Positions 8,323-61,010 of a DNA stretch of 64,000 nt are shown one piece after another. The notes under the pieces were generated by a model that was not told the origin of the DNA, searched no databases, and saw only the letters and a list, made by a program, of their open reading frames with translations. Origin of the DNA: Datnioides undecimradiatus (Eukaryota; Chordata; Actinopteri; Lobotiformes; Datnioididae); NCBI GenBank assembly GCA_008933995.1, contig WARS01000013.1, forward strand, positions 7,106,329 to 7,170,328. The letters run 5' to 3'. How positions within the stretch are numbered: the stretch's first letter is position 1; each line of letters begins with the position of its first letter. A program made the translations under genes and the position numbers.

Positions 8323-9364
8323 TCACAGAGTCCTTTTATAAATTTGCTTGCAGACTTGATTCTCACAAGTAAGTTCCTACAGGAAGAAAACACAAAGTTA
8401 TCAGTCAAATCAATAAAAGTTTCACAAAGGGAAAAGAGCATATGAGTGACTAGATTGCTGCATTGGTTTTAAGGAGACATCAAGACTGTCTTTTTTTTTG
8501 CCTTATTCATTGAATATAGATGTGTGATGTCTGGATGAGTCTGCAAAATAATAAAATCACCATAACATGTCACAAATCAAGAGTTGTTGATCAGTCATAG
8601 AAGTAGTCATACCAGGTGAAGCTCATCTCCGTGAATCCAGTGAGTCCACCCTCGGTTCTTCTTCTCTCCTTTCTGGACACACACCAACTTGTCATTTTCC
8701 CAGTTGACCACAGTCTGATGGAGGGCAAAAATGCAGTGCCTTGTGATCTCAGAAACGTTTGTGAAAGACTTTGAGACTACAGTATTATCTTCTGCTAATG
8801 GTTTTACCTGGCACGACCTGTTGTCCATTCCTTTCGTCACCTCTCTGAACTCTTCTCCAATTTTAAATGAAAGCTCATAATTTCTGAATGTAGTGAATGT
8901 ATTGATTGTGAAACAGTCTCCATCTTGCTTAATCACTTTCTGGGGCTTCAACATCGAGGCAATCTTGCGGGTTGCAAAGTCGATGTCTGCGTGTCAAAAT
9001 GAGAGGAACTTTAACTTGCTATCGGCTCTGATCAGACACATTTACTGTCACTGGACATATAACACTCTCATTTACAGCAAGAGGTGTACATTGATGAGGA
9101 AGACTTTTCCTATTTGATTTATATAAATGCAGAAAAAACACTATACTGCTACTATATCCCAACAGATAAATTACTGTCTTTATACTAAAATCAATTAATT
9201 CATATCATAAATAAATATTAGTCAAAGAAACTGTTAGATTTTAGTTTGTATTTTCACTAGTTTTTTTTTAAAGAGGACCAGCAAAACTTACCAAGTGCAA
9301 CCATATATCCTTCAAAGTTGACATTACTGGTAATGTCCCAGGTCCCACTGTAGTCAACAGGCAT
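8323..9364 (-). CDS. rbp7: Cellular retinol-binding protein (RBP7 / CRBP-III/IV type)
   Basis: This is a cytosolic lipocalin-fold carrier of retinol from the fatty-acid-binding-protein family. It has the family's standard four exons, here on the minus strand: 9364-9292, 8986-8808, 8714-8613 and 8376-8323. They join in phase to 135 aa, the usual length. Landmarks are SGTWDI...[10 protein letters not shown] in exon 1, [17 protein letters not shown] in exon 2, [19 protein letters not shown] with GDELHL in exon 3, and [12 protein letters not shown] in exon 4. The [10 protein letters not shown] stretch and LKPQKVI agree better with RBP7 than with RBP1 (which has KEGRGWTQWI and LKPDKEI). The 1p36-like neighbourhood supports this too. 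The tail RTL extends slightly past the usual end. Confidence 0.92.
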
Positions 9365-26514: not shown

Positions 26515-29500
26515 ATGGAGCTCCGTCGTGTCAACTTATTCTTCTTTTTATTTATTAACCAAGTATTTACCAGCCTTCAGTCGAAAGAACGTAAGTAGCA
26601 ACTCTTTTAAATGTTGCGTTAACAGAAATAAAAGTGTCGTCTGGCTTTACCGCACCTCATGAGTCAGGAGTTTGGAATTTAAAAGCCTGTTTTAAGTTTT
26701 TAAGTTTTACATCGTCGAGACAACAATTTGTACCGTAGGCAGTTTGACTTTTGTTCCTGTTTAGTTTTTCAGACACTAAAAGATAATTTAGTTAAGTAAA
26801 TGAAGGCTTTTGAACCTATAGCCTATACTTTTAATTAATTTGAATCCTTGTTTAAACTATTTAGAATGTTTTAAATGGTTAGAAAGCTCGGGCTATCGTT
26901 TTTTATTAGTGATTTTATTATTTATTCCAATTTACTTGTCTTTGTCGACTCAGGGTTTAAGGGCACCTGTGAGGTGCCTTAATATGTCAGCTTTTTTGTT
27001 TCACTTGTGGCGCTGATTCATGTATTTCTCTCGTCATGGCAATTTGACTGCCCACGCCTTTCTCAGACATTATTAGTGCTGTATCCTGGACCTGGAGGAC
27101 ACGGTCAATAAAGTCCTGAATCAGACGGACATGCTTGATTAAAATGTCAAAGAATGGCATGTGCCCCCCATAAAGTGGTTGGCCCCGAGATCAAGGCATT
27201 GAATATAATTGTACAGTCATATCATAGTAATTTCTTATCATTCAATATCCTATTAAAAACTGTCTGTGCCAGAGATATACGCAGCTTTGTAAAACATTTA
27301 ACTTTCTTTAATAGCAAATTATTTATTGTATATGACTTTATTAAATATGACTATTTTTATTATTTGCTATGATGCCTTAGGTGTCATTAGTTATGTTCAT
27401 TGTTACTATGTACGTTACTAATTTCTTTGCTTGTCTCTGTAGAAATATTACTGGATATGAGTGCCTCAGGATCAGAGTTGGGCTGGTTGACGTTGCCATA
27501 TGAGGATGGGGTGAGTATTTTAACCTCAACAGGCATTTTTTAAGACTTCAGGTTCAAGACTTGAAACTGCTTTTCTCCACACAAGATGACAAATAAATGT
27601 AAGACAGCTGAAAACAGTCAATGTGAGAATTTGAATACTATTTAGCATAATAACAGAGGCATCTCTTTGCTCATTCACTCCACTAAAAAAGCTTTCTGGG
27701 AGAAATGGAATGAGTGACACCTCAGTGAGGTTTGGCAGAGCACCGCTAGTCTTATGTTAACACTACCCTTTCATAAAAACATATAAATGCCATTAAAATG
27801 TCATGGTTCAACCTACATTTAAATTTACAGTATGCATTTTTATGCAGTCACGGGAGATTGTTTTCATTCCGACACTTAACCAGAAAAATTAAACTTTTGA
27901 GACTTTGTTTCTCTAGTGCTTCCTCTTTGAATACAGACATAACAGCAAGATGATCTGTACAGTTGTGGGAAGACATATGTATGCAGGAAAGACAGAGAGC
28001 CTGGTCCATGTGTGGAGAACCATCCCTCTATCTATAGTTCAGTGGCTTTCCGTCTAAAAAAAGCAACAGGACACAGTCACTTCCACTTCTTGGGCTGTGT
28101 TTCTTTTGTGACTGTTCGAAAAGATCTGAGTGTTTGCTCTGCTCTAATTCATGTTTCTCACACTTGTAATCTGTATTTGTACAATGAATCACTATTTGCA
28201 ATGTGTAGTCTTGGCTTCAGGAAACATATTTTAACAATTTATTTTCTAAATGCAGTATGACCTGTCCAACTAGACGATAAAAGTTAGATAATATTTACAA
28301 GTGCCTGAAATACAGTATGTAATATAAACTGAATATGAACTACTATACTGTAAAGGAACTAATAGCTGCATGTTTAAGTGTAAAAGTCAGAGACATAAAT
28401 GATCTATGTTGCCTCATAAGCTTCTCTTATCTAATGCTACAAACGTTTTTGAAATTGGGGGAATACACCTAATTACTTTGCCTTTCTACTGTAACAGCAG
28501 TTAAAGTAACATATATTTAAGCATTGACTCACTGCACTGCTAATATAAGAGGTGTTACATTTTAATGTTAAGTAAAGGCTTTTAAATTTTCTACTCGTCA
28601 TTGCTTCCCTCCCTTAAAAAGTCTTAATTGCTGCCAATTTTGCTGCCATGCCTTTACACTGTGCTTTATAAAGCTCATTGAGTTGCCATAAATCTTAGCT
28701 GGTATTCTACAGTAGTATTTCCTGGTTTTACGTGTGTCTCACACACATGCACCCCAGCGTGTTAGTGGAAAACCACACACGTTGTTGAGCGCCGCACATG
28801 TCCAGGCCAATAATTTTAATTTGTGGAAAAAAGGCTCCAGCTCTCTTCTGCACTTTATGAGCTTCTCACTCAGCATGAAAGAAGAGGTGTCTCATCAATA
28901 AAGCTGGTCCTCGGCAGGAACAAAGCCTCTGAACCCTGTACTTATTCCCCAAAAAATGCTTTTTTCTCCTTTCATTATAGTAGCTTGGTAACTGTTGCCT
29001 CTTAAACTGATCTCTCTCCTCTGTCTTTATGTTTTTCTGTCTTACAGTGGGAGATTGTGCAGACGGTAGTGAATGGCTCACTTTTATATACCTACAGTGT
29101 TTGTAGCATAGACTCTACTGAACAGGATAACTGGTTACGCACAACATTCATCCAGCGGCGACCAGGGACCACACGTGTTTCTGTGGAGCTCCGTTTTGTT
29201 GTGCGAGACTGCAACACTTTTGAAGGTGCCTCTGTCGCCTGCAAAGAAACCTTCAACCTTTTCCTCTCTGAGGCTGATGCAGACGTGGGAACCAACTTCC
29301 GTAAAGGCCAGTTCCGAAAAGTAGCCACCATCGCTCCCGATGAGGTCACACGGGGTCGTGTGCTGAAGGTTAACACCGAGACGAGGACCGTGGGGCCTCT
29401 GTCTAGAAAGGGCTTCTACCTCGCTTTTCAGGACATGGGCGCATGTGTGGCACTGCTGTCTGTCAGAGTGTACTACAAGACATGCCCATCCACAGTGCAG

Positions 29501-32500
29501 AGCTTGGCGACCTTCCCGGAGACCGTGGCCGATACTCTCAGGGAGGTGGAGGGAGCCTGTGTGGAGAACGCCTTCAGTCAGGCCACCCCACGAATCTACT
29601 GCACAGCTGAGGGTGAATGGGTGGTTCCCGTGGGTCAGTGCCAGTGTCTGGCAGGCTACGAAACCACTGGGGAGTCCTGCCAAGGTAAGCATTGCCAGAA
29701 ATACGCCACGCACTCAACTGAGGCGTGTTTGTGTTGCTATGTGAGTTATAGTAAATGAAACACCTCGAACCACTACTTTGGCAAGGTGTGAGGAATAAGC
29801 GCAGAGGAATGTTAATTGTGTCTGGTTTGGTTGAAAATCCATCACAAAACCACTCCATATCTGTCGTGAAGTAGGCCAGGTACAGCAGGACTGGGCATGG
29901 GATGTACAAACCTGTTTGTCTTAGTTTAGATTTTGAGGCAACCACAGATTGCTCCATGTGATATGGATCAAACTCACAGAGTACATTTCAACAGCCTCTC
30001 GTCAATGCTTTATTTCTTTACCTGTTGGGCAATAGCACATTCTTTCCACTGCCTCACTCTCAGGACTCAGAAAACTGGGGCTGGCCTAAGACACTGTTTT
30101 ATGGATAGGGTGAAGGGTGGAGGTGATAAAGTACAGTACAAGAAGGCCAATGTCCCAATTTCATCCTACACATTCCTTCTTTATGGATTTGTTTTATGTT
30201 TACACTGGAAATGTGTCAAACACACTCAAAGATATCAGTATGCATGCTGCAAGTGACTGAAATTCGAGTGTGGTGCTGATGGACACAGGTTGCACAGTTC
30301 ACCTCAGGAGAAGTTGTGAAGTTACTTAAAACAAGAAAGAAGTTAATTTCAATTCTTGTCTTGTTGTAAGTAGCTCCTCAGTCAAGCAGCTTTAAAATCT
30401 CAAGAATAACATTTAACAATCTTTGGAAGTTTCCAGATTTCAAGTTCCAGTAATTTTCCAAAGTCACAGTTTAATTGATGTTAGTCAGCACACTTCTCCT
30501 CTAACTTATTAGCAACTCATAAGAGTAGGCTGCATTCTTCTTTTGTATATAAACTGCTAATTCAGTGAACTATAAAGATTTCAATTCTACAATTCATGTC
30601 ACAAACTGTATAATATTGTTATGCAGTGTTAAAGAGGGAGGAACATGAGGGTTTACTCATTCACATGATCTATAGGCAGATGTTTTTACTAAACAAATAA
30701 ACGAAACAGGGACACGTGTAATTGAAAAACTTGAAGTAATTTGGGAGCATACTTTGGAGGGATGGTATTTTTGTTTATTCACAGGAGCGACACCCAAACT
30801 AAGGTTAAGTATGCCAAAACTTTGCAGTATGCACTGGCCTCAAGAAAGGCCTGCGAGAACATACTGTACACAGAAAACAAATAGATGTGCTCAGTAAAAA
30901 GACATAACTGTGGTGTTCACGCTGTGTGTGCTCCTACTGTTTGTGTGGAAGTTGGTCATTTGGCATTCTCGGGTGTGGTGTGTTGAACTGTCTGGAGGAA
31001 ACGTGGGAGGAGAGAGGGTACAGAGAGAAGAGGAAGGAGGTAGGAAGGGCACGGTATGGTGCGGGGATTTCTGAAAGGAATTCTTTCACCCTCGCGTCAC
31101 CTTCAGCACTGATTGACTAAAGGGAGGGCCGTGTGAATGTGTCGGAATGACTACCTGAGTGCTGTGTCTTCTGCTCACAAGTATTTGTTTTCGTCAGTTG
31201 CTAAAGCGACAGGAACCACAGATTACAGGGATGGGGCCGACACGCCTATCAGAGGTTAGAGTGAGTCAGGCTGCGGTTTATGACTCCTGATGGTCCGAGT
31301 CACCTTGACTGGCAGAGTTTGGTGTCTTCTCAGTGTTGGTTTCTATAAGTGAGACACAAAGTGGCTCAACTTCTCCTTTGAGAGAGGAGATTTAATGTTG
31401 ACTACAGGAAAACTACAGGAAAAACATTTTTCACTATTTTGTGATATAATGTGGACAAAACAAAGAATGCAGATCATTAGTTCATCAAAATTACTGATAG
31501 TTTAGCCTTATACAGCATACATAGATATATACTGCACTCCAAAGAGTGAATCTTGTACTGAGGTTGTAAAACTGGAGATAGATGAAGGGAGCAAGGCGGG
31601 GAGGAAGCTGTGGCAGAGGAATGTTTTAGCCTTTGAGGTTGCTGACCGCAGGCAGACTCTGAGCTGAGCACCTGAAAAGGAAGTTGGCAGAGGAAGACAG
31701 GAAATATTTATGATGGGAAAACCTGTGATTCAAAAGTCTGGAGGATGACCTGGCTGTTGGGATTCAGGAAACATGATTTGTTATATAAGTTAATACACAA
31801 TTATAATGTTTGTTTGCATGTGGTTTGTTCCAGCCAGTTCCCTATTTCCAATTCAACATTTACTAGAGAAAGTGATATCCTCAGGGGCTCATGGCCAGCA
31901 TGTGGCTTCCACTGAAGAGTGCAACTGTTGTGGGAAAAGGAAGTAAAGTGAGATGAGGAGGAATGCTGACTGACACAAATAAGCAGGTTGTCCTTGGTTG
32001 AAGTCAGAGGGTGGGGAGTCGACAGTTGGTGCATGAGGGTGGTTAGTTTCGTGGCTGCTTAGTTAGGTGTGGAGTGTAATTTAGTCAAGAGGATTAGTAG
32101 AGCAACAGGACAGCTGTTAGCCAATGACATGCCCCGCTTTGCCTCCCTTTGCTCTTTCATCCGGTTGTTAACACACGCAACAAGCTCCCTAATCCATGTT
32201 CCCACTCATTAGAACAATGGGCCGACACAAAGAGCAAAATCAGATTCAATTAACAGATGCACCGGTGCGGAACATAAGTCCTTTTCACATCTGTGTTGTA
32301 GTCATGAAGGAACGTGGGGCAATCAGGAGAACTATTTCCACTATCCCATGAAGATAAAAGTTCGTTGAATTAAAGTTTTAGATTGACTGAAAACAAAACA
32401 AAACTCAAATAACATGAAAATAAATTAAAATTAACAATGAGAATCTGTTATTGACAAAGTCGGCATTAACATTGTTTGTATTTATGCACTGCACACATGC

Positions 32501-35500
32501 CACCGCTTGCAAATGGTATAATGAGTAATGCAACATATTTATGGCACCACTCTGTCCAATCTCAGAGACAATAGATGAATAGGGCTGGAGTTTCTTTGGT
32601 ACGTGACAGAGGTCCTGCTGCTCCAGCTCAAGATGAAATGGGCTGGCCCCCTTTTCTTATGCGCAAAGACCTCAGCTACACCCCCACTGCCGCCAAGTGA
32701 CTCCCCAGAGAGAACTTCTGTTGGTGCTCCAGACCTTTGCCCCCATCCCCCATCCGTCCATCTATTCATCTTCATCCCTCCTACTCAAACTCAACCTGCT
32801 CCTTCTGCTCCACCCTAGCAGTACTTAGAGTGCAAAGGTCCTTCTGCCTTGGTGGCAAAGTAATGCGACCACGTCTTCAGTCCAGGGTTCACTTGACCTC
32901 TTCTCACGGCCACCAGCACAGAGGCCAGATGAAAGGCTCCTCTCTGTCTCTCCAAGGGAGACAGAAGAATGAAAGCACATCTGAGAGATCCAGCCTCTGA
33001 AAGTTTTTTACTATACTGGAGCCCTTTATCACCCCAGAAAATATGTGCATCTGTTTCCATAAACACGCTGAAAATCATACTCGTCTCCAGCAGCTTTTCC
33101 TTTTTCCTGATTCTCTTGTCCTCAAACCGTCCAACCTTGGATGCTGTAATTTGTGACTGGTGTCGCGGGGTCAGCGGAAGGAAGGAAGAAAGAGGAAACG
33201 CCAGCTCTCATACTGAATTGCAGCTTTTGTGTCCTGGTTTCTGTCCACAGTGCATGTTCATTAACCTCCCATGCCCTGGAAGGCTGTTTATCTGTGTGCT
33301 GAAATGTCCGTCACAAACCTCCCTAACCAGTGTCCAAGGTGCCATTTCCTCTGGCAAAAACATAAATATTATCTGCCTGAGAATATGAGCTGAGAGTTCA
33401 CAGGGGAAAGACAGATCAGATCACCTGATGGATTTAATGCTCTGCTGTCATCCGGCTGACACCGGCAGTGCGACCTGAGATTAGGCCTCCAGGCGAAAAA
33501 GGCAAGTGGAGGCAGATCGTCAGGGAAATCCCTTTTCATTCCTCTGCATACAAAGACTCAGTGATTATAGGTTACTCACAACAAATGCTTCCTGTCAGGT
33601 GGAAGGAGCTGGTATTACAGAGACAGCTTCATTGTTTGCATTTTGATCAGTCATTCCTTCCTGTGTTTGTCTGTTTCACAGTTACTCCTATATGACATGC
33701 TTGAACTAACAAGCACCTTCTTTCTCTCACACAGCTTGCAAACCAGGCTACTTCAAGCCATCTGTATCCAGCAAGTTTTGTCAGGTTTGTCCTGATAACA
33801 CCAAGCCATCCACAGCCGGCGCCACTGAATGTGAATGTGAGGAAGGTTTCTTCCGCTCCCCCTCAGACCCTCCTACATCAGCCTGCTCAGGTACTGATCC
33901 CACTCGCCGTTTATATTATTATTACAAAATCAACTTTTAGCTCATTAGAGGATGGACAGAAGATCAGGCTAACTGTTCCGTGTCATCTACTTCCTCCCAA
34001 AGCACCACCCAGTGCCCCTCGGGACCTGAGCTCCATCACCCTGTCAGCAGAGGGCAGGCTGCAGCTGTCCTGGAGCCCACCACTGGTGACTGGGGGCCGC
34101 AGAGACCTCACCTACAGTGTAGTGTGCGAGCACTGCGATGGGGCCTTGTGTATTCCCTGTGGTGAGAAGATCCGCTTTGAACCAGGACCCGCAGACCTGA
34201 AGGAAACCATGGTCATCGTTACTGACCTGGATTCTCATCTCAACTACACATTCACTGTGGAGGCTCACAGTGGTGTTTCCCAGTTCGGTACTGAGAAGCC
34301 CACTGCAAGCATCACCACTGCGCTGGACTACACAGGTGAGCTCGATCACATAAAAAGTATTTTCATTTCACTTTATTTAACCTTGTGTACTATTCAGACA
34401 GATTCCCACAGACCCTGCTGCTGTGTAAAACATAGTGTAAAACATAATGACTGCTGAAAAATCAGCCAAATGTATCTTGTTCTCACTTTTACCGTTTGCC
34501 CCAACTGAACTCATACATGTGGTGAAGATGAAAAAACACAGAAATGTCCAGTATGTTATCATGTTATCCTCCATAGCAACATTATTTACTGCATGTGTTA
34601 CATGCAGGTGTGACTCACAAACTCTTAAAACTCCAACAGCAGAAAAACCCAACTGCACCTCTGAAATACCTATTTTGGTATTTTAAAACCAAGCACATAT
34701 ATTGAGCAAATGAGAGTCTTGTATCTTTATCCATGTTCTAAGACCTCAAACAAAAGTAATCTGCCATTTTCTGTAGTCAGTCTCTGAAACATGTCATCTG
34801 TCATCTTCAAGTCATGTTTACAAGCAATTCTCATGAAATTAGGAAAAGTATTAAAATGATGAGACTTTTGACGACTTAAAGAATTTTTGGGGCTTCAACA
34901 ACAGCAGAGTTAAAAGAGGCACAAAAATGTTCAAACTTTTTTTTGCCTGTAATGTTGTCTTTGTCATTGTGCAAACAGAGAGGCTCACTACACGGAGAGG
35001 AATTCAGTCTGACCCACTGAGTCCCAGAGGCTTTCATTTCCAAATGTCCTTTCCAAAGACTATGATTAGTCACTAACCATTATTTTGCTTTCTGTCTCTC
35101 ACCGACCATTAGATCCCCCCAAGGTGACGTTGATCCATCTGGATGATCGTGGCCCCACCAGCCTGTCTCTGTCCTGGACTCTGTCTCGCAGACCTCCAGC
35201 CCACATCAATCACCGCTATGAGCTTATGTACCGCAGAAAAGTAAGACACAGCACTCTTTGCTCTTTTGTCTCTCCCTGCCCTGTCCACAGTTGAGGTTGC
35301 GCTACGAAATCTTCACAGATAAATTATTCTAATCCACCCACGTTCCTCTTGGCAGGATGATGACGGCGAACGTGATGTGACCACCTACACAGTACTGGTT
35401 TTGGAGAAAAGTTCAGTCCAGATTAATGACCTCACCCCAGACACCACGTACGTGTTCAGGGTCCAGGCAATGGGTCCTGAAGGAAATGCTGGCAGCTATA

Positions 35501-38500
35501 GCGTGGAGCACGAGTTCCATACTTCACCTTTAGGTACCAGCCGTCTTAAAATCAATGTGTGATAAATACTCACTCAAAAATTATATTCCACATACTTGAG
35601 ATAAATGTTTTTTCCCTCTCCTCCGATTTGTACAGCTGAGTCCCAGATCCAGAACAACTCCACCATGGTGCTGGGAGCTGTATTTGGAGTAGCGGTTATT
35701 CTGCTTGCTGTGGTGGCCGTCCTGCTCTTGCGTAAACGGTTGGTAATAAGATAAATGTTATCTACACAACTGCACACTGTGTGATTATGAGGCGCAGACT
35801 TGAACACAGTTTGAGCCGTTTAAGGATATTCTGGTATGACAGCTCAGGGAGGGTTTATCAGTAATAGCCAGTGCTGCTGTTGAAAACAGCCTTGGTCTTT
35901 TTCAGCAGAGAGTGACTTGCAATTACCAAAATGCCAGCCAGTCTTCTGTTTAGTCCTGTAGTGATTGTTCATGTTTTCCTCTCAGGAGGCTGAGCTCCCA
36001 CAGGAGGGGAGGACCTGAAGATCCTTACTTTTCAACAGGTTAGGAAACCATTCTGCGCACACAACAATAATTCGATATTATTCACAGATTAAACTGCTCT
36101 TAAACTTATTATTTAATATTCTGGATAATGTTTCTTCCTTAGATCAGCTCAAGCCTCTGAAGACTTATGTTGATCCACACATGTACGAGGACCCTAACAT
36201 TGCCATCCAGAAGTTCGTCACAGAAATTGACCCAAGTGCCATTAGCAAACAGAAAGTCATCGGCGTTGGTAAGTGTTTTAAAAATCACTCACAATGCATT
36301 TAATGAGATTTCAGAGCACAATTTCTAACTGCTGACCATCTGCCCATCAGGAGAGTTTGGGGAAGTGTTTCGGGGCGTGATGAAGACTCCCGTGAGAGGG
36401 GAAGTGGCTGTGGCGATCAAGACCCTGAAGCCGGGGTACTCAGAGAAACAGAGGCAGGACTTCCTGAGCGAGGCTAGCATCATGGGCCAGTTTTCGCACC
36501 CGAATATCATTCGCCTGGAGGGAGTTGTCACCAAATGTGAGTTGATAACCGGAGACAGAAGTCAAATAATTATTCGCAGCTTATTTACATCAGCTGTTGT
36601 CCACTTTTCATGCACTAAAAGTTACTTTTTTGTTTTAATTTGCAGTCAAGCATGTCATGATAGTCACGGAATACATGGAGAACGGAGCTCTCGATACATA
36701 TCTGAAGGTAGGTGCATGTATTTTGTTAAATGGGCCTCCCTGTAAATTCTACGCTGACACAACTTAAATGCAAACATAAAATTCACAAACTCAAAATCTT
36801 TAAACAATAAAATACTTAAAAAGGTATTTAATAACTATATTTTTTCCCCTTTTAGGACCGTGATGGAGAGATTCAGTCCTATCAACTTGTGGGGATGCTG
36901 CGGGGAATAGCTGCTGGCATGAAATACCTCTCTGACATGAGCTACGTCCACCGTGACCTGGCAGCCAGAAACGTTCTGGTTAACAGCAACCTGGAGTGTA
37001 AAGTATCTGATTTTGGCCTGTCGCGTGTGCTGGAGGATGACGCTGAGGGCACCTATACGACAAGAGTAAGTCCAACACTTCACAGCCTAAAAGCATAGCA
37101 ACAGAGAAAGTTTTTTGTCTGGCAACAAACACCAGACTGTTAATGGTATTTTCACTCTCAAGTGTCCTGTCTGAAGTGTTGGTCTTTCAGTGCCTTCTGT
37201 TTTCACTCCCTTCACCCATTAAATATGATTTGTTCATGTTTCTCTTCTGTCAGGGAGGTAAAATCCCCATCCGCTGGACCGCCCCCGAGGCCATCGCTTA
37301 CAGGAAATTCACTTCAGCGAGCGATGTGTGGAGCTTCGGCATCGTCATGTGGGAAGTCATGGCTTTTGGAGAACGGCCCTATTGGGACATGAGCAACCAT
37401 GAGGTATGTTTCATCATCCGTCACACTGAGGTTCCAACATTTGTGGTTTAGTAAAAGATTGTTTTGGCCTGTGTAGGTCAAACTTTAGTATCGCCACTGA
37501 GAGTCTCTGCTGGGTAGGTGGTGATAGAAAGTAGCTTGAACTGGTGTAGTCTCCCACCATCCTCTTTAAATCAACTGTTAGTGTCAACATAAGACATACT
37601 GTTTTTTGTCTCTGCACTCATAAATATACTTTAGACCTGAGCGCTGCATTCACTGTGTTCCCATCTCTTTCTCAGGTCATGAAGGCTATCAACGAGGCTT
37701 TCAGGCTTCCTGCTCCAATGGACTGCCCGTCTGCTATCTACCAGCTTATGCTCCAGTGCTGGCAGCACGACCGCTCCAAACGACCTCGCTTCACAGATAT
37801 CGTCAACATTTTAGACAAGCTGCTCCGAAGCCCAGAATCTTTGAAAACCATTGCAGACTTCGATCCACGGTATGAGAGTGAACTAAAGGAGGCAAAATTT
37901 GAAGAATTGGTCATGTAATAGTGATGAAAAAAGTAATTACAGTAAAATAAAGATGAGGCAGAAGCTGGTTACATTTAAACAGCTTCACTAGTTATCATGT
38001 TATTGCTTTTTGATAAATCCATAGTAAAAGTGGAGTGTGACAACAACAGTTCACCATTTCAATGCTGACTTATGCTCCAGGCTGCCGCAGGCTAACTAGT
38101 GGCTAGGGGAGGTGACTTCCTAAGGTTGCTAGCAACTGTTCCAAGCAAATGGCCCCAATTCGAACCCTCTATAAAACGGCGAATCGTCCTCCCACCATGA
38201 CTCTAGCTTTGAACATAAGAACTTTTTGTTGCACAAGTTGTTACAGATAATATAAAAGAGAGTAAACTGAAAAATGAATTCCACAGAGAAGTAGATTTCA
38301 CAACTATATGCAATATTAAGAAACAGTATTAATTATAATAATTATAAGATAAAGTTTATATTCATTTTCTGTTTGAATTCCAAGACCTGTGTCCTACTTT
38401 TTGTTTAACTTGAGTAGTAAAACCTATTCCTTCTTATTCAATCACATGCACTCAGTTAACATTATGTAGTAAAAGATGAGTAATCCACGTGTACCTTATT

Positions 38501-49251: not shown

Positions 49252-50988
49252 AATGCTTTAGTCTGGGACTGACGTCTCATACAGGGCTGCAGTCTGAGCT
49301 TTACTAAGCAGCAATCACAAAAACTGGGGCCAGGTGTGGCTCTTTGTCAAGCCCCCGACAAACTCTGCGTCACAAACAAAGTTGCATTTATCAAATTTAA
49401 TGGTGACTATGCTGGTTAGGTGGCAATGGCCTCAAATGTAATTTGTAAGCATCACCCCGAGCTCTGTGAGATTCAGATTTTGGACTTTGTTCAGACTTTT
49501 ACCCAATTAAATGATCAGCAAGAAAATAGCTGTCTGGTTAGTATAAATACAGCAAATGAGTTGTAGTTCCAATTCCTAGCAGATTTTGCAATAGTGTGTC
49601 CTAGTTGAATTATGGCAAAATAAAAACTGCATGTATGTGTTTTTGTTCTTTTTTTTTTTTTTTAAATTGCTCTAGCATAACATCACAGTGGAACATGGAA
49701 TTGGGACACTCTACTCACACGTTAAGATTTTAGAGCGCTTGATTACAATGCTGCTGTTTGTATGCATGCGTATATAAAATGAATTGATTTTAGAGTCTTG
49801 TTATGTCAAATGCAGCCCAGATTGCAGCATTTACATGCAAGAAATAACAATACTGACTCAGGGTACAAATACTAGTTCCATTTTATTTTCAATTTAAAAT
49901 TTCATACAAGATAAAAGTAGATAATTCAATCTGCCTGAACATTGTTGGTATATGACTTAAATAAAGCCATTAAAATACTTGATATATTGTATGATGTACT
50001 GACAAAACATTGGACAGGCATGAATGACCATAACAGATTAGAAATTGAAAACAGGTGTTTTCAAAAGATATGGACACACGATGATGATTTGACACAAAAT
50101 AAAAAGGACTTTATGAACAGAAGCTACAAACAGTTTTTGTAATCTACACATGGCAAAGCTCTCAATCTGTGAAGAATGATACATACAGTACAAGATACCT
50201 TCTGTAATGCACACACTGAACCGAAAAATGCCACCTATGATCATCGACAAACAAACTTGTGGCTCACTTAATATTTCAGTGTAATAACAGCCGTGCATGT
50301 TGGGATTTCTGTCTGGAGAAATTATTTGTAAACCTGATCAAAAATGATCAATCCTTCTAAACTGCAGCAATTCCCACAGTATAGTTTTTCTATCACTTTT
50401 GTTCACATTTGTTGATTGAAGGGGCTACAAATGTAAAAATAAACATGATGCTTTATTTAATCAGCAAATTGCTGTAGCCATATTTTTGCCCAATGATCTA
50501 AAGCTCACCAGACAGAGTTATTCTGAGATGGAGAATGGGAGCAAAGTTACTCCACTTTGAAATTTTTATTGATGCTTCACAACTTAAACAACAATAACTG
50601 TATGATATGTCATAGAGAAAATTATAGTTATTTCGAATGGTTCAAGAATCAATCATACATTGGGCATTAATGAGTCGATGTGGGATGACAAAACAAGAAA
50701 AACATAAATCAATCTACCATACCAAATCTCTAAAAACCAATGAAATGGGTGGGCACCCAAAACATCTGCATGCAAACACACCTCACATATCTGCAATATC
50801 CAGAAAAGTATTACCAGTTGTCCTGTTTGTTCTTGGGTATTCCGTACGACAAACCAAGAGACAGCATTTCCCTGTGTTTAAACGTGCTCCCTGTGAAGGA
50901 GGGACTGAGACGTCTGGATCAGTAACAAGGTATAAATAAGACAGATGCTGAGTTGAGAGGCTGACGACTCGTATGACTAGTTATGAGT
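49252..50988. other. arhgef19 promoter side and rsc1a1/ddi2 3' UTR
   Basis: No coding exon is supported. The left end should hold the arhgef19 promoter. The right part is probably the 3' UTR of the ddi2/rsc1a1 transcript on the minus strand, with candidate AATAAA signals (TTTATT on the plus strand). The short plus-strand frames here are not gene-like. A T tract lies near 49650-49664. Confidence 0.45.
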
Positions 50989-52428
50989 CTAGGTGGGCAC
51001 AGTGATACTGCGAGCTAGTAGGGCCAGCAGAGCTAGCTCCACCACCCCATGGGCTCTTTCCAATGCCTCTGCAGCCTCCATGGCAGAAAATCCTGCTGCC
51101 TGGATTCTCTGGATGTGCTCAGCTGGAAATCGTTCGATAAAGGGATGCGGAGAAGGAAGAAGAGGAGCCGGAGATGTAAGAGAGGCTGGAGCCTGAACAA
51201 GAGGAGACGAAGAGGGAAGAGAGGTGCCAGAGACTTCCTCAGGTGAGCCCACTGCCATGGACAGAGGGCTGAGAAAATTGTGCTCAGTCTGGAGGCCCAG
51301 GGTGTCTGGGGTGTTGGTGCCAGAGGCTTGTCCATCTGCAACCCCTCTCCCTTGCTGCCCCTCAGGAGGTTCCCTGAACTCCAGGTCGTCTGCAGGATCA
51401 GGAGGAACCTCTGGCTCAGGCTCAAAAATGCTGATGTCATTGGCTTCATCTTCTCTATCTGCCCTCATCTCTCCAGAGCCATCTGGACACTGCTGTGTTC
51501 CTTGTTCCTCCACAGTCTCTGCTGCATCTCTGCCCAGATGTGCTTCCTGGCCAGAGAGGTCAGGCAGAAGACACTTAGATGGTCCTTCCTCAGACACAGC
51601 AGCAGCAGCAGCAGCATGGTTGGCTTTGGCATCGCTTGGTTCTGCACCGGCTGTGATGGCAGTAGGGGGGATATGCTCTGTGTTTCCGGGTGTCAGTGTG
51701 CATGGCTCGGGGGTCACTTCCTCGGTTTCCTGTTTGAATGGATGTGAGGGGGAGCAGGAGGTGCTGCGGTTTTGGGACTGAGCCTGGTTATTGGACACCA
51801 GCAGCTCATGAAGCTCCATCAGAGCGGCTGCCAGTGAGGGGATGCTGTCGGAACTGGAACAGTGCTCTCCTTCAGGCTGGTCCCTTTCAGAGGCCACGAC
51901 TTCCTGTGAGAGGGTGGACGACTCCATTTCTACTGAGTCAGACTGGCTAGAAGCATTCGGACAAGCTTCTGTGGCATCAGCCATTTCAGACTCAGATGCT
52001 TCCTGCTCCATCGGTTGAGTGGGAGAAAGTTCCTCTGGATGTTGGAGCATTGAGATGTTCAGCACCTGGTCTGATTCAGTATCCCCACATGCAGCTGCAG
52101 GTTGTGCCTCAACCCCCTGATACTGAGATGCCGTACCCATGTCTGCAGGAGGGGTACATGAATGGAGGGCATCTGCTGTGGGACTGGGTACAGGGGGCAC
52201 TTTGGAGTTGTGTTGGACAGGCAGAGGGTGAGCATGGACCTGATGAGGTGTAGAGCCAACATCCTCTGCTGGGGATGAAGGCAGAGGAAGCTCCTGGAGG
52301 CCAGGTTGGTCCTGGCAACACCCCGGTGCTGTGGTCTGCTCCATGGCTGCCGGGGCGGACTGAGAACGATCCAGGCCCTGGGGCTGGCCAGAGGAAAGGC
52401 TTTGGGAAGGGGAGGTTGATGAGGACAT
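50989..52428 (-). CDS. rsc1a1: RSC1A1 (RS1)-like open frame with C-terminal UBA-like domain
   Basis: A single-exon open frame of 479 aa in the last exon (52496-50989) of the ddi2 transcript. Human RSC1A1, described as a regulator of the glucose transporter SGLT1, also sits intronless in the ddi2 3' exon. Most of the protein is Ser/Pro/Glu-rich and low in order. A short conserved block SIPSLAAALMELHELLVS (human SITAALKELHELLV) and the end are recognisable. Residues about 430-479 form a UBA-type three-helix domain (IQRIQAAGFSAMEAAEALE, then VELALLALLA) ending ITVPT, against human IVVPT. A GCT repeat encodes six Ala near 51597-51616. The ATG at 52428 is the first in frame. The frame itself is open further upstream through the whole exon and the exon before it, so this may not be a separate protein. 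Confidence 0.82.
   Translation of the reverse strand: MSSSTSPSQSLSSGQPQGLDRSQSAPAAMEQTTAPGCCQDQPGLQELPLPSSPAEDVGSTPHQVHAHPLPVQHNSKVPPVPSPTADALHSCTPPADMGTASQYQGVEAQPAAACGDTESDQVLNISMLQHPEELSPTQPMEQEASESEMADATEACPNASSQSDSVEMESSTLSQEVVASERDQPEGEHCSSSDSIPSLAAALMELHELLVSNNQAQSQNRSTSCSPSHPFKQETEEVTPEPCTLTPGNTEHIPPTAITAGAEPSDAKANHAAAAAAVSEEGPSKCLLPDLSGQEAHLGRDAAETVEEQGTQQCPDGSGEMRADREDEANDISIFEPEPEVPPDPADDLEFREPPEGQQGRGVADGQASGTNTPDTLGLQTEHNFLSPLSMAVGSPEEVSGTSLPSSSPLVQAPASLTSPAPLLPSPHPFIERFPAEHIQRIQAAGFSAMEAAEALERAHGVVELALLALLARSITVPT
51597..51616. repeat. rsc1a1: Short AGC trinucleotide run in rsc1a1
   Basis: Six AGC units, read as GCT (Ala) on the coding strand. Confidence 0.8.
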
Positions 52429-52831
52429 TTGGTCTAAGGTTCTGGGTAATGTAAATGGTGGGGGCTGCCGTGAGGTAGTTTGTCCATCTGCAGTGTCTAT
52501 TGCAAGAGAAAATATAACTGGGAATTAAAGAGCTTGAATTTGTGTGGACCCAGTCTGGAAACACTACTTTGGATAAAATGTAATCTAATACCCCAAACCT
52601 CCCTTTCCTCACTGAAACACTTTTTTCTTGAAATACCTGCTGCACATTTGGTTTGTTTCTTGTGCTACTTTTCCCCCGTTTTAAGACTTAAATGATGAGA
52701 AAAATACATGAATAAGTACAAACAAAAGTACAACATTAATTAACTGATCCAGCAGCAAAATAACAGCAAAATAAAGAGACATAAATAGCAATGGACTTAG
52801 CACTGGCAATGGACTTGTGAATTTGCAGTAC

Positions 52832-52880
52832 CTGGTTGGTAGGGCCCTCTCCAGCTGTCTCCAAATGCATCAGTGCTGTC
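52832..52880 (-). other. ddi2: Penultimate ddi2 exon holding the stop and an overlapping open frame
   Basis: A 49-bp minus-strand exon: acceptor ACCCCTGAGCAG, donor CCAG|GTACTG. Reached from ddi2 exon 8 in phase 1, it codes GQH and then TGA. In the other frame, +1 relative to ddi2, it codes [16 protein letters not shown] and runs in phase into the rsc1a1 frame of the last exon (DTADGQTTSRQ...). Confidence 0.65.
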
Positions 52881-55800
52881 CTGCTCAGGGGTTAGGGCAC
52901 ACACCACACACATCATGCAAAGGGACGGAGAAAGTTAGCAGTCACACACAGAGCATGCACCAACTTATCAGCTTTTTCACACACACAGATGTGAAAAGGG
53001 TCACCCAAAAACAACTTGAGCTTGTCCTGTCAGAGAGGTCACAGCATAGTCACACACCCTGTCACCCTGAACCTCAGAAAGCTCAGTTGAGGTCATGTCA
53101 AAATCACTCATGATAATCAAGGCCAACATTATTATTTCATTGATGCCTATTCTCTAGCTGCTGACCACCTTATTACACAACATGAATGCTATACCACAAG
53201 ACCCTCATTAGCCTGAAATCATTGCTCCAATCTCTACTGCTTTTTTGTTCCTATTCCATTTGCAATGTGCAGCCATTACTGGATGTGACTGGCCAATGGA
53301 AACAACAAAAAGACTAAGTGCATCAACGGCAATAGCACAAACATTAATGTAAGCCTTGAAAAATATTAAAAGGGAAACACTTACATGATTATATTTTGAC
53401 AATCATAACAATACAAAGTTCAATCATAATGTTATGTGACTAATTCTAAAACAAGCCAAAACCATTCCTGAATTTAATTTGGCCAACATTCCCTTCATAA
53501 ATGTCACATTATACAGTCATACAATCCTCCCAACACACATCACTTTGGTAGTCTCTTGTAACCTTGAAAAGTCATCTTCAATGTTTGCTGGATATTATCT
53601 GAACCTCCTCCACTGTGACAAAGTGGCAGCCTGAATTTCATTTTGGAAAAGGGGAAGAAGTTGCCAACACCAAATCAAGCAAGCAGGGCAGGTATGGAGT
53701 GATGATTGTGCTGGTGCAGCCCAGAAAACCCAAACTAACCAACCAAAAGCGCCATTGTATACAGTTCAGGTTGTCCATGCCGAATTTCCTCCCTCAGACA
53801 CGTCAGTACAGCGCAGCGGATATCTCCATTGATAGGCAAACCTTGAGGGACAAAGTTGCGGTGCACAACCTTGGAAATGCTGGAAAAAACAACCAACATG
53901 CACTCCCAATGTGATGTCCAGACTTCATGACTCTTTCTTCTACACTGTTTTTTTCCCCCATTGCTAAGCCTGCTGTTTGGTCTGTGGGTCACAGCTGTTA
54001 ATGATCCTTGAGATGCTCATTCACAATAGTTACAATAACTATTTAACTTGGTGAGTCTTTGGCTTGACACACTGGCCGTCGTTAGGGTTGCAAAGCAATG
54101 TTGATAGGATTGTCAATCAGATGCAAACGCTGTGAAAATATTTTTAGTCATGGTTCAAGTGTACACATGAAAAGCACGCTATATCTAGGAGGAAATATGG
54201 GCCCAGGCATTTATTCTGTTAATAGTAATCACCCTCAGCAATTCCTTTTTTCCTCATACATTTGAGATATTTTATGATTTCAGGAGATTTTATTCATGAC
54301 AACGAGATTCATCTATTTCCTAAAAAAGTGAATGCAAAGTTCTCTGATTTTACTCCCTAATTTTTAACTGTCTGTGTAAGACACTCTTGCTCATACTAAT
54401 AACAGCCTATGTGTCTGTTAGCACTATGTATCTGTTTCAATTTGTCTTTGTAGGTGGCTACACATGCTGTTCTCACACTCCTTCAGAGAGCCATCTGCAC
54501 AGTTGTCCAACATAGAATCTGACAGGATTCAACAGTCCATGCTAAAGTTTCTGCAATAAGATACCCTCAGTACTGAAGATTAGCACTGATGGCTCCATGA
54601 AGTGTGAATGAAGCCATCAGCTTAAGCTTAAGTACCTTTCACATAACCGAAGACACTACATACAGAAAACAAGCAAAAAGTTAATCATGAGTGTTTCCCT
54701 TTACGCATAAAAGCTTCATCTGGTATTCTTCTCGTCTATGCTTACATTTTCCTGATGGATTTCTCTCCATTTCCTGACCACATATTCTGAAGCACATTCA
54801 ATTTGCTGAGGTGATGACATGACGTGATCATGTGACAAAAAATTCAGATGTCTGCATAAATGGGGTTGAGAAAGAAGCTTTAAGTGGCACATGCAAATGT
54901 GGTTCTACTTGAGCCAAAAAAAGCCCAATCAACAACAGGCTGAAGTGCGGCGACGGAAGACTTCTTACCACTTTCCTGTATGGACCTCTGAAGTGCCTCT
55001 GCCAGTTCTCTGTCAGCTATCTCATCTGGACGGGCGTCTTCACGCCCCTCTGCTCCATATGCCAGTCTGGCACAATCTGGCAGCTCTGCCTCAGACAGGA
55101 AGCGGGTTTCAGTGCCTGTGGTGCCTATTAAAAGCACGCTCTTCTTCAGGTCGATCGAACACTACAAGAAAAACAGCACAAGTAACTCTCAGATTTTCTT
55201 CAACTTTCAGTATGTTCAATATTCAGGGGACTGAAAATAGAAACTACTGTTTTATCTTATATATCTAAACACTCTGTGACCAGATAAAAAGCGGCTCACA
55301 CCTGATGTCTCTTCAGCATATCCAGGCCAAGCAGCATGTCCATTGGCTGGTCCTCCAAGATGGAGAATGAACAAGGAAGGAAGTCGCCCTCTATCTGGAC
55401 CTGAGCTACATGAGTGCAACAAGATAACACAATATCAGTGACACTGAAATGCCAAAGACTTTGACATGATTGTGGTTTAAAGAAGAGATCAAGTAAATCA
55501 ATCTTTGACAAAACACTAAAGGGTGCTTAATGGTAAGCTTAGCTTAGTAAGGAAAAAAAAGTCAGCTAAAACTGAAATATCATACCCTTTGCTGGAAACT
55601 AGTCTACACTTGCGTCAAAACACAGAGGTGCGCAAAGAATATATATAATATACCCAAATGAACTCTCCCAATGATCTTTTGAGTGCCCACTCCTTTGGCG
55701 ATCCCAGCCCAGCGACGGTCCACCAGCCGCATGATGTTACAGCGCTCAGCACATGCTTGGCTCATGATGGTCATCTGAGCTCCTAAAAGCAAAGAATGTC

Positions 55801-58567
55801 AGTTTTTTTGCCCTTTAACATGTAACTGATATATATCAAAATATAAAATAAAACAGAAGCTACAACAGAATAGAACCACCTTTTCATGCCATTTCTGTCG
55901 TATGGAAAATATTTCACTGTGTCGTTACTACTTCAGCATTTCAAAACGGACAAGTCAAACACACTCGAGGGGGCATTTGGCATTTCTTGGAACATAAAGC
56001 CTCAGTGCTAAATGCCACTACATCCTATACACTGGTCCTTTGATGAGAATTGCAGTGAGGACTGTTAAAACATAAACACAAGTTGAGGGGCAGAGCCACA
56101 ATAAACATCAATGTTCCCTGAGCACACAGAAGTATGTTATTGATAATTATGGCTAAGCATTCCTGTTTATGACCTGAAAATTGTAACAATGACAAACAGG
56201 ATCAAGATTTTATGCTATTTACCTGAGTCAACAAAAGCTTTCACAGGGTGCCCATTGACTTTGCAGTTAATGTAGAGCATAACCACCTGTCCAAAGCTTT
56301 CCGGGGCCTCTTCCATTGCAATGGTCATGTTTTCTTCCACATTGTGCTGTCTGGAAATTTTAAAAACAAACAAACAAACAAACAAACTAACTTTGCTGCC
56401 TACATTTGGTAAACAAACTGTTTTGTCTTGCGTAAAAATGACCATTATCATTATCTTATATCCTCTTACGCTACAATATCTGGTTAGGGAAATGTAATAC
56501 TTTACAGTAAGTTGCACTATTCCATGGATGAGGGATATTTTGTGTTGTTATAAATATCTGTGGTGTCTCCACACTACCTGATGTCCTCCTCAATCTTTGC
56601 TTGGGCCTCCAAATCAAAAGGATCAGCAGTCAGAAGTCTGATCCTTTCTTGCTCTCTCTTGGCTCGATCCTGCTGTTGCTCCAGAAGCACTTTGGTGAAA
56701 CGTTCTGAGGAAAAACAGATGGTTACACTAAAATGACAGATAGAACTGTTCTGGCTATACTACTGAATAACAGTAAGACCATAAACAGAAAACTGTTCCA
56801 TGGAAAAATCATCGGCTCTTTTTTGTTTACCCAGGTCTCCACTCAGCAGGGCCTCAGCAAGTGGCGGGTTTCTCTCCTTGAGGAGTGAAAGCTCATGTGG
56901 ATTGGACAATAGCATCTGCTGGAGTAAGGCGGGGTCATCCAGCCCCTGAGGAGAGGAGCCACGGAAGGCCATTGGCGTGGAAGGTTGTGCGGCACGCTGT
57001 TGCTGCGCTGTCGGCTGCTGATGCTGCTGTGATGTCTGTTGCTGCGGCCTACTGCCACCACGTTGACTGCTTGAAGAAGAGGTGCCAGGGACTGTGATGG
57101 AACGAAAGTCAATATGGGGCAGACCTGAGGAGAAAAAAGGACAAAGGATGAGAGGATGGCATCTTAAAATGCAGAAAAACTGTGCTTATTAAATGGATTA
57201 TGCTTTTATTGTTTGTGTATTTCAGTATTGTTTGCCTTGTGTCATTAGATGAATAACTCCTGTAATCTACTGGAGTTTCCTCATACTTTTTGATGTTTAT
57301 CTTGAACTGGTTGCAACCAGTCAACCACCCACAAAAAACAAAACAAAACAAATAATGCTGGTTTACCTCACTAACAAGAACCAGCTCCAGACATACAGGT
57401 TTGGTGAATGTTTTTGAATGTAAAACAACAGCAGCTCAAGTAAGCAGTGAACTACACAGTCTAGCCAGACTAAAATTCAAGACCCATCCCATTATCCTCA
57501 TTCTCATGAAGACACATCGAGCAAGGGTCATCCACAGAGCATTTTCAGGGGTGTATAATTTACAGGAATTTACATCTTAACTAAAACTTTGCAGCAGACA
57601 CAAATCATTATCTTTCATTTATCTTTTTTATCAAACACATGGGATACCTGGGAAAGCTGGTTGAGTTGGAGGTGGCCTTCTGTCAGCTTGTCTAAGAACC
57701 ACCACATCTCCATCCTTAACACCATAGTTCCCCAAGGCACGAGTGGGGTCTTTTAGGTGCTGTTCTACATATGTGATCTGTTTGTGGAGAAAAACATAAT
57801 TAAATTTAATGTAATCATACAGTATATTCTTTAAATATTGCTTCCTTTATATTTGATGTGAATGTCAAGATTATTTAACCAACATGACTGAATGAGCTGG
57901 AATGAATGATTTTGTATTTTGGACAACAAATCGGATCCAGATCAACTTCTCAGATTAAATTGCATTTGTTAACGTTACTACAGTTGCTAGCAGACTACAA
58001 GCAGTCACTGCTCGATCCGTGTACAAATGGTTGCTGTTGCTTTATTTGTTTTGGTGGCCCTCATTTTATACGTTCTCCCCACATCAATGTTAAAAAGCCG
58101 TTAACGTTACTAGTGACGCGAGTGTAAAACAACCGTTAACTTAGCATTAACAACTGTCTGTTAACGGGTCGGACAACAATTAGCTTCACTAGCTTGGCAT
58201 TATGTTAACTTTCGGTGACACTAACATTAAGACTACCTACACATAAAGCCGACCGTTTGTAGCCGTTGGGGACACAAGTCAACAACTTTGTCTGTTGACG
58301 ATAACAGGAGTTTCACAACACCCCGTCAATCAAAATAGCAAAGGTCCGATTCATGCTAGCAAGTCAGCTATCGTGCTAGCTAGCTATTAGCTGCGGTAGC
58401 TTATTGGCTACAGCTAGCTTTGGTCTTACCTGAATTTCCCCAGCTGGGATTCCTGATTCCAGTTCACAAAGTGCTACAAAGTCTCTGAGCTCCAGGTCTG
58501 GGGACACATCGAGGGCGAAGGTGGTTTCTGGGCGATCCCTCGGCGCGCAGAAAACGGTGACCAGCAT
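52870..58567 (-). CDS. ddi2: DNA-damage inducible 1 homologue 2 (aspartyl protease DDI2)
   Basis: A ubiquitin-directed aspartyl protease of the proteasome system; it cleaves and activates the transcription factor NRF1/NFE2L1. Nine coding exons on the minus strand: 58567-58430, 57777-57648, 57124-56831, 56704-56578, 56350-56223, 55782-55654, 55405-55302, 55161-54969, then 52880-52870. They join to 417 aa (human 399). The ubiquitin-like domain is residues 1-80 ([20 protein letters not shown]). A Gln-rich linker follows in exon 3. The helical domain has [19 protein letters not shown] and [20 protein letters not shown]. The retropepsin-like protease at about 245-350 has active site FVDSGA (Asp271). 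The end [13 protein letters not shown] matches the human LAEALQKSAEDAE, and termination after GQH mirrors the human length. Reading through the exon 8 donor would give another short tail ending at 54880. The following exon carries the rsc1a1 frame. Confidence 0.95.
52881..54968 (-). other. ddi2: Large last-but-one intron of ddi2
   Basis: Two kilobases without a supported exon. I looked for a small extra exon of length 3n+2 that would bring ddi2 in phase with the rsc1a1 frame. I could not identify one by eye. Confidence 0.4.
56363..56386. repeat. (CAAA)n simple repeat
   Basis: About six CAAA units in a ddi2 intron. Confidence 0.85.
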
Positions 58568-61010
58568 CGCTTTTTTGGGGCAGGATCACTCGACAAACCC
58601 GCTGCAACAGAATGCTGTTAAAGTAGTTCCTTGTCTCACAGAGGAAAACCCAATTTGATCTTTGGATTTGCCCCAGTTCAAAGGCGTGTTTCAGCAGAAA
58701 ACGGGTCAAAGAAGAAACTAATATTACACAGAAAGACAGTGGCCGCGTTGCACTTACTGGGTAAAAGCCTGATGTGACAGTTTCTCTTTTATCAACTAAA
58801 CAACATCAAGCACCGCTCAGGGGTGCCGTATTTCAGCCGGCGTGTTTTTCGACGTGTCGCAATACACATTTTGCTGTCGTGAATAGTTTCCTCTTCTTAT
58901 TTCAAAACACTTCAAAAGCCGGTGTGCTTTTACCACCGCCTGCTGGATACTTTGAGAATTACACAGGGCACGGCATAGTACACTTTGAATCAGTTATAAA
59001 GGTATATTTAAGTATTTTCATTGTAAACTAGTGTACTGTGGCACAAGTTCATAATCCATAACATAAAAAGATGCAACACTGGTGTTCAAGGAGTGGATTC
59101 AGTTCCAAGAATAGGTTTGTAGTTTTTTTTTTTTCAACAGTTCTTCATCACATGCACAGAGGGGATAGTTACACTTATTCAAAGTGACTTCATAGGAAAG
59201 CCAGTAATATTGCAAGAGTGACAGTGTGTGTATGTGTTGATGCATAAACAATAGCTCACTACTCATATTCATACCTTCCTCAATCCAGCATCATCATCTT
59301 TGCTGTGTTGTTTGTTTCCTTGGATTTTAGTTCCTCTAAACTCACCCACAGAAACTGTAACCTGTCGTGCTAACCACATAGTTCCTTCACTCATTTCTTG
59401 CAAATGTTTTTGCTGCTGCAAGACAGATTAATCAGATTGTATCCTGTGTGCACAGGGGTTTAATCTACCTCAAATCTAGTGCAAGAAAACAACCAGAAAA
59501 CACTATGAGCTAGGAAAAATTGGGCAGCCATCCAGTGACAAAATGAAGAAATGTCAATGATTTCAGAAAACATGCAGTTAGGAATAGCCCTAATTAAGCC
59601 TGACAGCCACTTTGCAGCAGAAAGGGCAAATACTTTCTCCTCCTGTGAGGATGTCACACATCCAGTCATCAACATTAATAAAAAAATATCATTCTGTGTC
59701 TAAAAGTAAACAAATTATGTTGCATTCACTGGCTCTATCCAGAGGTTTATAGTCACATCACAGTCACTGAACAAATGGTTGGATTTGGTCCCCACTCTAA
59801 AAAGTTTAAGGTTTTGACATAAACAGCAATTTCAAATGTTTTTGTAAAGCAACATGTTGACTGTAATAGATCTGCAATCACTATTATTCAGTTTAAACAT
59901 GTTTCAGTTGGTAGGAAGTGAAGACTAAAACTGAATGTCATGGGTCACACTTCCTATATAGGAAGCAGAAAATCTTTGGTCTTCTTTTCTCTTTATCTCA
60001 AATTGGGTGCAGTCCCACTATCTGCAGAGATGCCTTTCTGTGCTTTTGCAAAATGAAATAGCACACTTGGTAAGGCTGGCTTACTTGAGGCGATTTATCA
60101 AGTAGCGATGTTATTCTTAAAGTACTCCTTTTGTAGAAAATTGTTTCTATTGAGCGACGCTGGATGAAAAACGTATGTATGTCTATGTCACAGAAATGAC
60201 ATCCGCAAAAACATTCATCCACACATTCCTTTTTTATACAGATTGTGCAGACATGTCCAGACTGTGCATGATTGATTTCTACTCAACAGCTACTGCCCCT
60301 CAGCCCCTTTGCCCCTGTGCCCCCCTGCACTATGTATCACATTAGCAGTCATTTTACATCCCATTTGCTATTCAACTTGCTTTCTCAGGCTGTGGCTGAC
60401 AGAAGCCTACTGTCAAATTATATTTATTGTTTGTCAGCCATGTACAATGTTATTGTCTTTAAATCTTGCATGCATAATGTTAGCTTTCTGGCTAAGAGCT
60501 GAGCCACAGGAATGTGTGAGCTCAGAGGACTGAAAACATCTCTTTTGCCCAAGGTTTATGCTATTTATTGGAGTAGTGAATGGGGTTTTCATCGCATTAG
60601 AACCAAATTGTAATGAGTAACTGAGGGATTATGCCCTTTTCCATCAGTGTGGACAGCTGTTTTTGTGCAACGAAGTCTCTCAATGTATTAATTGCCCTAT
60701 TCATTGTTTTTGCTCTCATCTTTTCTTGTTTTTTTCTTGAATTCTCCTAGGGTTCTCCTTTGTGCAGTTTCTCTCTTTTTTCATCCCATTCTTCAGCTAC
60801 TCCCGAGTCAGCAAGTGTGTCACTTTCTCCTGTGTCACTAGTTGCTGCAGTCAGCCTGGATGTTAGTCTGTAATTATTTTTTTGGAATAAATCGTAAACG
60901 AAGGCTGTGACTGCATCCCTGTTTTTCTGTTTACTTATTTTAGACGAAGGCCAATGCTAGCTAGTGTATCAGTGTAGAGGGTTGAACCGTTTCATTTGAA
61001 GTGCTCGATT

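Follow-up and report, generated by a model that had tools for sequence, protein, structure and literature searches.

The ddi2 transcription unit of Datnioides undecimradiatus and the RSC1A1 frame at its 3' end were analysed in a window of 64,000 nt of contig WARS01000013.1; the material consists of the DNA letters of one genome, and all coordinates refer to this window. The unit is described by a ten-exon model on the minus strand, which begins with the ATG at 58567 and reaches its terminal stop at 50989, and each of its nine introns starts with GT and ends with AG. An open frame in its terminal exon (52496-50989) had been claimed in a first-pass annotation of the same DNA and is present as described, with 502 codons and a stop. 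The features of the unit are as follows.

58430..58567, minus strand: ddi2 exon 1, with the ATG and the start of the UBL (residues 1-76 match the UBL of human DDI2, 2n7d, E 5.1e-23)
57648..57777, minus strand: ddi2 exon 2, UBL
56831..57124, minus strand: ddi2 exon 3, linker plus the first part of the helical domain (Ddi2_HDD 9.9e-30, residues 152-217)
56578..56704, minus strand: ddi2 exon 4, remainder of the helical domain
56223..56350, minus strand: ddi2 exon 5, from the start of the protease to DSG at the exon 5/6 border (Asp_protease 1.2e-52, residues 246-354)
55654..55782, minus strand: ddi2 exon 6, protease
55302..55405, minus strand: ddi2 exon 7, protease
54969..55161, minus strand: ddi2 exon 8, end of the protease and UIM region, ending in phase 1
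52832..52880, minus strand: exon 9, 49 bp (49 = 1 mod 3), whose inclusion ends ddi2 after GQH
52870..52872, minus strand: TGA stop of ddi2, 38 nt upstream of the end of exon 9
50989..52496, minus strand: exon 10 (terminal), RSC1A1 frame of 502 codons and a stop, the first codon spanning the preceding splice junction
52426..52428, minus strand: first ATG of the RSC1A1 frame, in an unfavorable context (-3 C, +4 T)
52342..52344, minus strand: second in-frame ATG of the RSC1A1 frame, in strong context (GCAGCCATGG), 28 codons after the first
50992..51129, minus strand: putative Ddi1-type UBA region of 46 residues, from FPAEHIQRIQAAGF through to the C-terminus

The product of ddi2 is a member of the Ddi1/DDI2 family, with a retropepsin-like protease that contains DSG and is nearly identical to that of human DDI2 (4rgh, E 9.8e-91), and with both the N-terminal UBL and the helical domain of the family. 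The UBL scores below the Pfam cut-off (18.7 versus 25.4 bits) but strongly matches that of human DDI2 (2n7d). The label of the UIM region in exon 8 is based on the UIM peptide of human DDI2 given in the available part of PMC4962041. Searches of the same genome (581 Mb in 497 contigs) for a ddi2 paralogue returned eight matches, all of which fall in the ddi2 gene itself, and the sole match to the UBA sequence is likewise the gene's own. No relatives passed in a tblastn search for stray vertebrate sequences in the viral_contigs and genome_contigs collections, a tRNA search gave none, and Rfam had no match at gathering scores.

The fate of the RSC1A1 frame depends on exon 9. With exon 9 included, ddi2 ends in ...IQESGQH after 417 aa and is cut off from the RSC1A1 frame; with exon 9 omitted, the phases of exons 8 and 10 agree, and their in-silico join forms a single open frame of 916 aa with the domain order UBL-HDD-protease-UIM-linker-UBA. 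The linker between UIM and UBA comprises about 460 residues and is rich in Ser, Pro, Ala, and Glu. Only when exon 9 is left out is the C-terminal UBA in frame in the same protein as the protease, and this joining phase, from exon 8 to exon 10, was overlooked in the first-pass annotation. The latter had instead emphasized that the frame stays open, with matched phase, through the 49-bp exon. Frame 0 of this exon does run phase-matched into exon 10, but it is shifted from the frame of ddi2, which reads G-Q-H-stop, and ddi2 is therefore not linked to RSC1A1 by this open stretch.

Human DDI2 comprises 399 aa, with the UIM peptide at 376-396, and both the human protein and the exon-9 form end shortly behind the UIM, which lends support to exon 9 being genuinely coding. 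Under an approximate scoring matrix, the acceptor of exon 9 is the lowest of the nine (3.0 bits, followed by exon 7 with 3.4 bits), as expected for a skippable exon. If exon 9 were no exon at all, the join of exon 8 to exon 10 would be an ordinary splice. Stops near the last junction are usually spared by nonsense-mediated decay (the 50-nt rule), and the TGA of ddi2, at 38 nt from the junction with exon 10, lies inside this zone. A search for exon 9 as a repeat, which skipped very common words, found only the self-match in the same genome. Intron 8 harbors two AATAAA signals on the minus strand (54210-54294), and its retention would provide ddi2 with a third possible C-terminus.

A different route from ddi2 into exon 10 would be a +1 ribosomal frameshift at the stop in exon 9. 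A +1 shift at the TGA indeed enters the RSC1A1 frame, which is open to its end, and TGATGC recalls the frameshift site of antizyme; however, the codon before the TGA, CAC, differs from that of antizyme. Downstream RNA structure other than pseudoknots is unremarkable (z -0.85, -0.38, 0.34, and 0.17 for 45, 60, 80, and 100 nt), and in all three codon models frame 0 of exon 9 scores below the other two frames. Compared with open intron pieces, this frame is unremarkable (122, 141, and 148 of 1171 are as high under the three models). We regard such a frameshift as scarcely credible.

There are several lines of evidence for a UBA at the end of exon 10. Thirty-three residues of the C-terminus align without a gap to the UBA of yeast Ddi1, including the FP before helix 1, and in shuffle tests against UBA stretches of Ddi1, Mud1, and NUB1 (two), which were taken from search outputs and hence picked as similar, only 0, 0, 1, and 0 of 5000 shuffles were as good. 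When 65 residues were compared with 177,635 PDB sequences using phmmer, there were three matches at E up to 10, namely to Mud1 (0.15, the best), an NADH oxidase (0.4), and a designed protein (3); Mud1 is the fission-yeast orthologue of Ddi1. A two-row profile, in which one row is a provisional version of the human RSC1A1 end, had seven matches (NUB1 chains, 1.8e-4 and 1.9e-4; yeast Ddi1, 0.12; PE5, 0.14; Mud1, 0.14; a tegument protein, 0.28; CBL, 0.42), five of them to UBA proteins. The shuffle tests and this profile search indicate that the C-terminus resembles solved UBAs beyond composition, and with an E limit of 10 none of nine shuffled versions matched a Pfam family.

The conserved C-terminus of RSC1A1 is also present: judged against a provisional human sequence, the end of the exon 10 frame is 48% identical to human RSC1A1 over 68 columns, in agreement with the match noted in the first-pass annotation. 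This provisional human end alone matches no Pfam family at E 0.01. That the UBA likeness is due to chance or convergence appears very improbable. An alanine- and leucine-rich helix, the presence of CDCA as a second weak Pfam match (E 0.032), and single-sequence structure models that are not UBA-like speak for such an origin, but it is opposed by the shuffle tests, by Mud1 as the top PDB match, and by the position at the 3' end of ddi2. Sequence comparison thus supports a UBA-like C-terminus that would be descended from Ddi1. Within the linker, a second patch (51796-51840, minus strand, exon 10 frame residues 220-234) reads PSLAAALMELHELLV and likely forms a short helix; we take it to resemble a stretch of human RSC1A1.

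It is unlikely that RSC1A1 is produced from the mRNA that includes exon 9, because 26 ATGs (counting the start of ddi2) precede the first in-frame ATG of RSC1A1, whose own context is poor. RSC1A1 would stem either from an internal promoter and a separate message or, as part of a long protein, from the omission of exon 9. In the former case, RSC1A1 would be an independent gene with a transcript from intron 8 or 9 and a protein of about 480 aa, sharing only genomic DNA with ddi2, a possibility to which we assign substantial but minor weight. It agrees with the strong-context ATG at 52344, with the description of RS1 as a separate regulatory protein in knockout and peptide work (in the excerpts available), and with the portrayal of RSC1A1 as a UBA-bearing gene inserted into the DDI2 locus in the available part of Siva et al. 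(PMC4962041). By contrast, initiation context is poor at the first ATG of the frame, the acceptor of exon 10 is usable and in phase with ddi2 exon 8, and introns 8 and 9 and exon 10 lack a CpG-rich stretch, although a CpG-poor promoter would still be possible. In 500-base bins across 50500-60499, the observed/expected ratio of CpG is high only at the start of ddi2 (0.79 and 0.91 at 58000-58999, GC 0.44-0.47), followed by 0.56 at 55500-55999, and ranges from 0.06 to 0.33 in the eight bins of 51000-54999, which cover introns 8 and 9 and exon 10. Moreover, QSP, the active transporter-regulator motif of human RS1 according to excerpts of the RS1 literature, is missing: the exon 10 frame contains neither the RS1-Reg motif QSP nor QEP, only one QCP at residue 336, so that a function in transporter regulation cannot be taken for granted in this species.

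Over a separate RSC1A1 gene, we favor an exon switch, which we consider to have an even chance of being correct: exon 10 would encode the ancestral C-terminus of Ddi1, and the 49-bp exon would decide whether a short DDI2 or a complete Ddi1-like protein is made. A long and probably disordered stretch would have pushed the ancestral UBA off from the protease, and the 49-bp exon would act as the switch. With the exon in, translation would end three residues past exon 8 to yield the short DDI2 of 417 aa, with a stop whose closeness to the last junction would presumably shield it from ordinary nonsense-mediated decay; with the exon out, exons 8 and 10 would be read in one frame, and the 916-aa product would have the full domain order of Ddi1. 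Under this model, RSC1A1 would for the most part be the C-terminal tail of the long DDI2, and a separate RSC1A1 protein would require a transcript of its own. The first-pass annotation had suggested that RSC1A1 may be the detached, or still attached, C-terminal half of a long DDI2. Descent of the UBA from Ddi1 is supported by the sequence and had been put forward by Siva et al. 2016, but the proposed read-through route does not stand; that the two halves are still attached is possible through omission of the 49-bp exon.

Several results weigh against the exon switch. Splice support for exon 9 is weak, since 18% of 288 intronic AG sites outscore its acceptor. Phase agreement would arise by chance in one of three cases, and the 23 codons by which the RSC1A1 frame is open between the acceptor of exon 10 and the first ATG (52428) are open also in 23% (intron-like) to 50% (exon-10-like) of random Markov sequences (20,000 per model), so that both are weak evidence alone. 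Most UBL-protease proteins outside vertebrates, however, also have a terminal UBA (in the available part of PMC4962041), which would have required an in-frame junction of the ancestral gene and lends strength to the phase argument. For a 30-codon stretch at the 5' end of exon 10, of which 8 codons lie beyond the ATG, codon scoring does not single out the RSC1A1 frame, with three-frame bits of 7.2/1.8/3.0, 7.8/10.5/-3.4, and 8.6/8.0/-0.2 in the three models; only 5, 1, and 2 of 500 open intron pieces score as high as this stretch, which differences in GC may explain. In addition, work on mammals has treated RS1/RSC1A1 as a protein in its own right, as far as the excerpts at hand report.

Further objections concern the UBA itself. 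The first-pass annotation had called the last 50 residues UBA-like, which holds by sequence, given the ungapped match to Ddi1 and Mud1 as the best PDB match, but not by the Pfam threshold: the last 52 residues match the Pfam UBA (PF00627) with E 0.011 and 16.1 bits, below the cut-off of 22.4, and the family is unlisted at E up to 1 when the whole 916-aa join is scanned. The UBA loop reads AGF, not MGF. AlphaFold2, run on single sequences with no alignment, produced no three-helix UBA from either 65 or 45 aa. In the 65-aa model (pLDDT 74, pTM 0.41), helices span residues 15-19, 22-30, and 35-62, and the third of them has the length of two UBA helices, merged; the 45-aa model is one straight helix (pLDDT 93.5, pTM 0.57). 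In Foldseek, the 65-aa model had one match (E 6.6), which is no UBA, and VIA-align had none. We take these single-sequence models to be uninformative more than refuting, yet they lend no support.

Both the low Pfam score and the models would also be expected if exon 10 were only 3' UTR of ddi2 and its frame a decaying, untranslated relic, and in the exon-9 form the entire frame does sit downstream of the ddi2 stop. Such decay is hard to reconcile with 502 codons free of stops, for which extrapolation of the exon-10-like rate gives about 3e-7, and with the 48% identity to the provisional human end, which would hardly be kept without translation. We therefore judge a relic to be improbable.

A broader version of the exon switch, which we advance only tentatively and consider rather doubtful, is that vertebrates never lost full-length Ddi1: a stop-bearing exon would toggle between a UBA-less and a 916-aa DDI2, and RSC1A1 would largely be the tail of the long form. 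If true, the phenotypes of RS1 knockouts would partly reflect the loss of long DDI2, and RSC1A1, now filed as a regulator of sugar transporters, would be recast. The regain of a UBA by skipping one exon would bear on how DDI2 handles ubiquitin. Ubiquitinated NRF1 is reportedly cleaved by DDI2, a result ascribed to Dirac-Svejstrup (2020). In the accessible excerpts, DDI2 favors Ub3 over Ub2 chains in lysate pulldowns (PMC11109483), and di-ubiquitin was not recovered in pulldowns with tagged human DDI2 of 399 aa (PMC4962041).

Other genes in the window comprise an N-terminal exon of TARDBP (TDP-43) at 1528-1920, plus strand (Pfam TDP-43_N 7.6e-32), and a lipocalin/cytosolic fatty-acid-binding-type exon at 8610-8993, minus strand (1.4e-8), perhaps of a cellular retinol-binding protein. 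A gene at 12989-15665, minus strand, with the N and C parts of G6PD and a 6-phosphogluconolactonase part is H6PD-like. An Eph receptor gene at 29006-37915, plus strand, with ligand-binding, cysteine-rich, fn3, and kinase exons, is presumably ephA2, given likely synteny.

The headline of this finding, the relocation of the UBA to RSC1A1, is already in print, since the available part of Siva et al. 2016 (PMC4962041) states that in vertebrates the UBA became part of RSC1A1, inserted in the DDI2 locus. A UBA consensus in RSC1A1 is mentioned with a 2006 citation in an excerpt of PMC11774587, whereas excerpts of PMC7279161, PMC6509411, and PMC11012796 describe human or vertebrate DDI proteins as having no UBA, or a UIM instead, and do not mention RSC1A1. 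A fused DDI2-RSC1A1 form, the arithmetic of exon 9, and the 916-aa product were not found in the literature searched, which comprised sources other than subscription papers, preprints, and sequence-database records. What would be new here is that omission of the 49-bp exon would rejoin both halves into one protein.

The closest known system is the vertebrate DDI2-RSC1A1 locus as presented in the available part of PMC4962041, which likewise has UBL-HDD-protease-UIM in DDI2 and a UBA at the end of RSC1A1 in one locus. There, RSC1A1 is a new, inserted gene and a skip of the 49-bp exon is not mentioned, whereas here exon 10 can be joined in frame. Human RS1 (RSC1A1), a regulator of SGLT1 trafficking, shares its C-terminus with the exon 10 frame (48% identity, based on the provisional human sequence). 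An LHELLV patch is presumably common to human RS1 and the exon 10 frame. The active motif of human RS1, QSP, is absent from the exon 10 frame, which would fit an older role in the ubiquitin system. Yeast Ddi1 and Mud1 of fission yeast share the domain order of the joined form and the sequence type of the UBA; they differ in the loop, which reads LGF in Ddi1 and MGF in Mud1 but AGF here, and in the long linker and stop-bearing exon that lie between UIM and UBA in Datnioides undecimradiatus.

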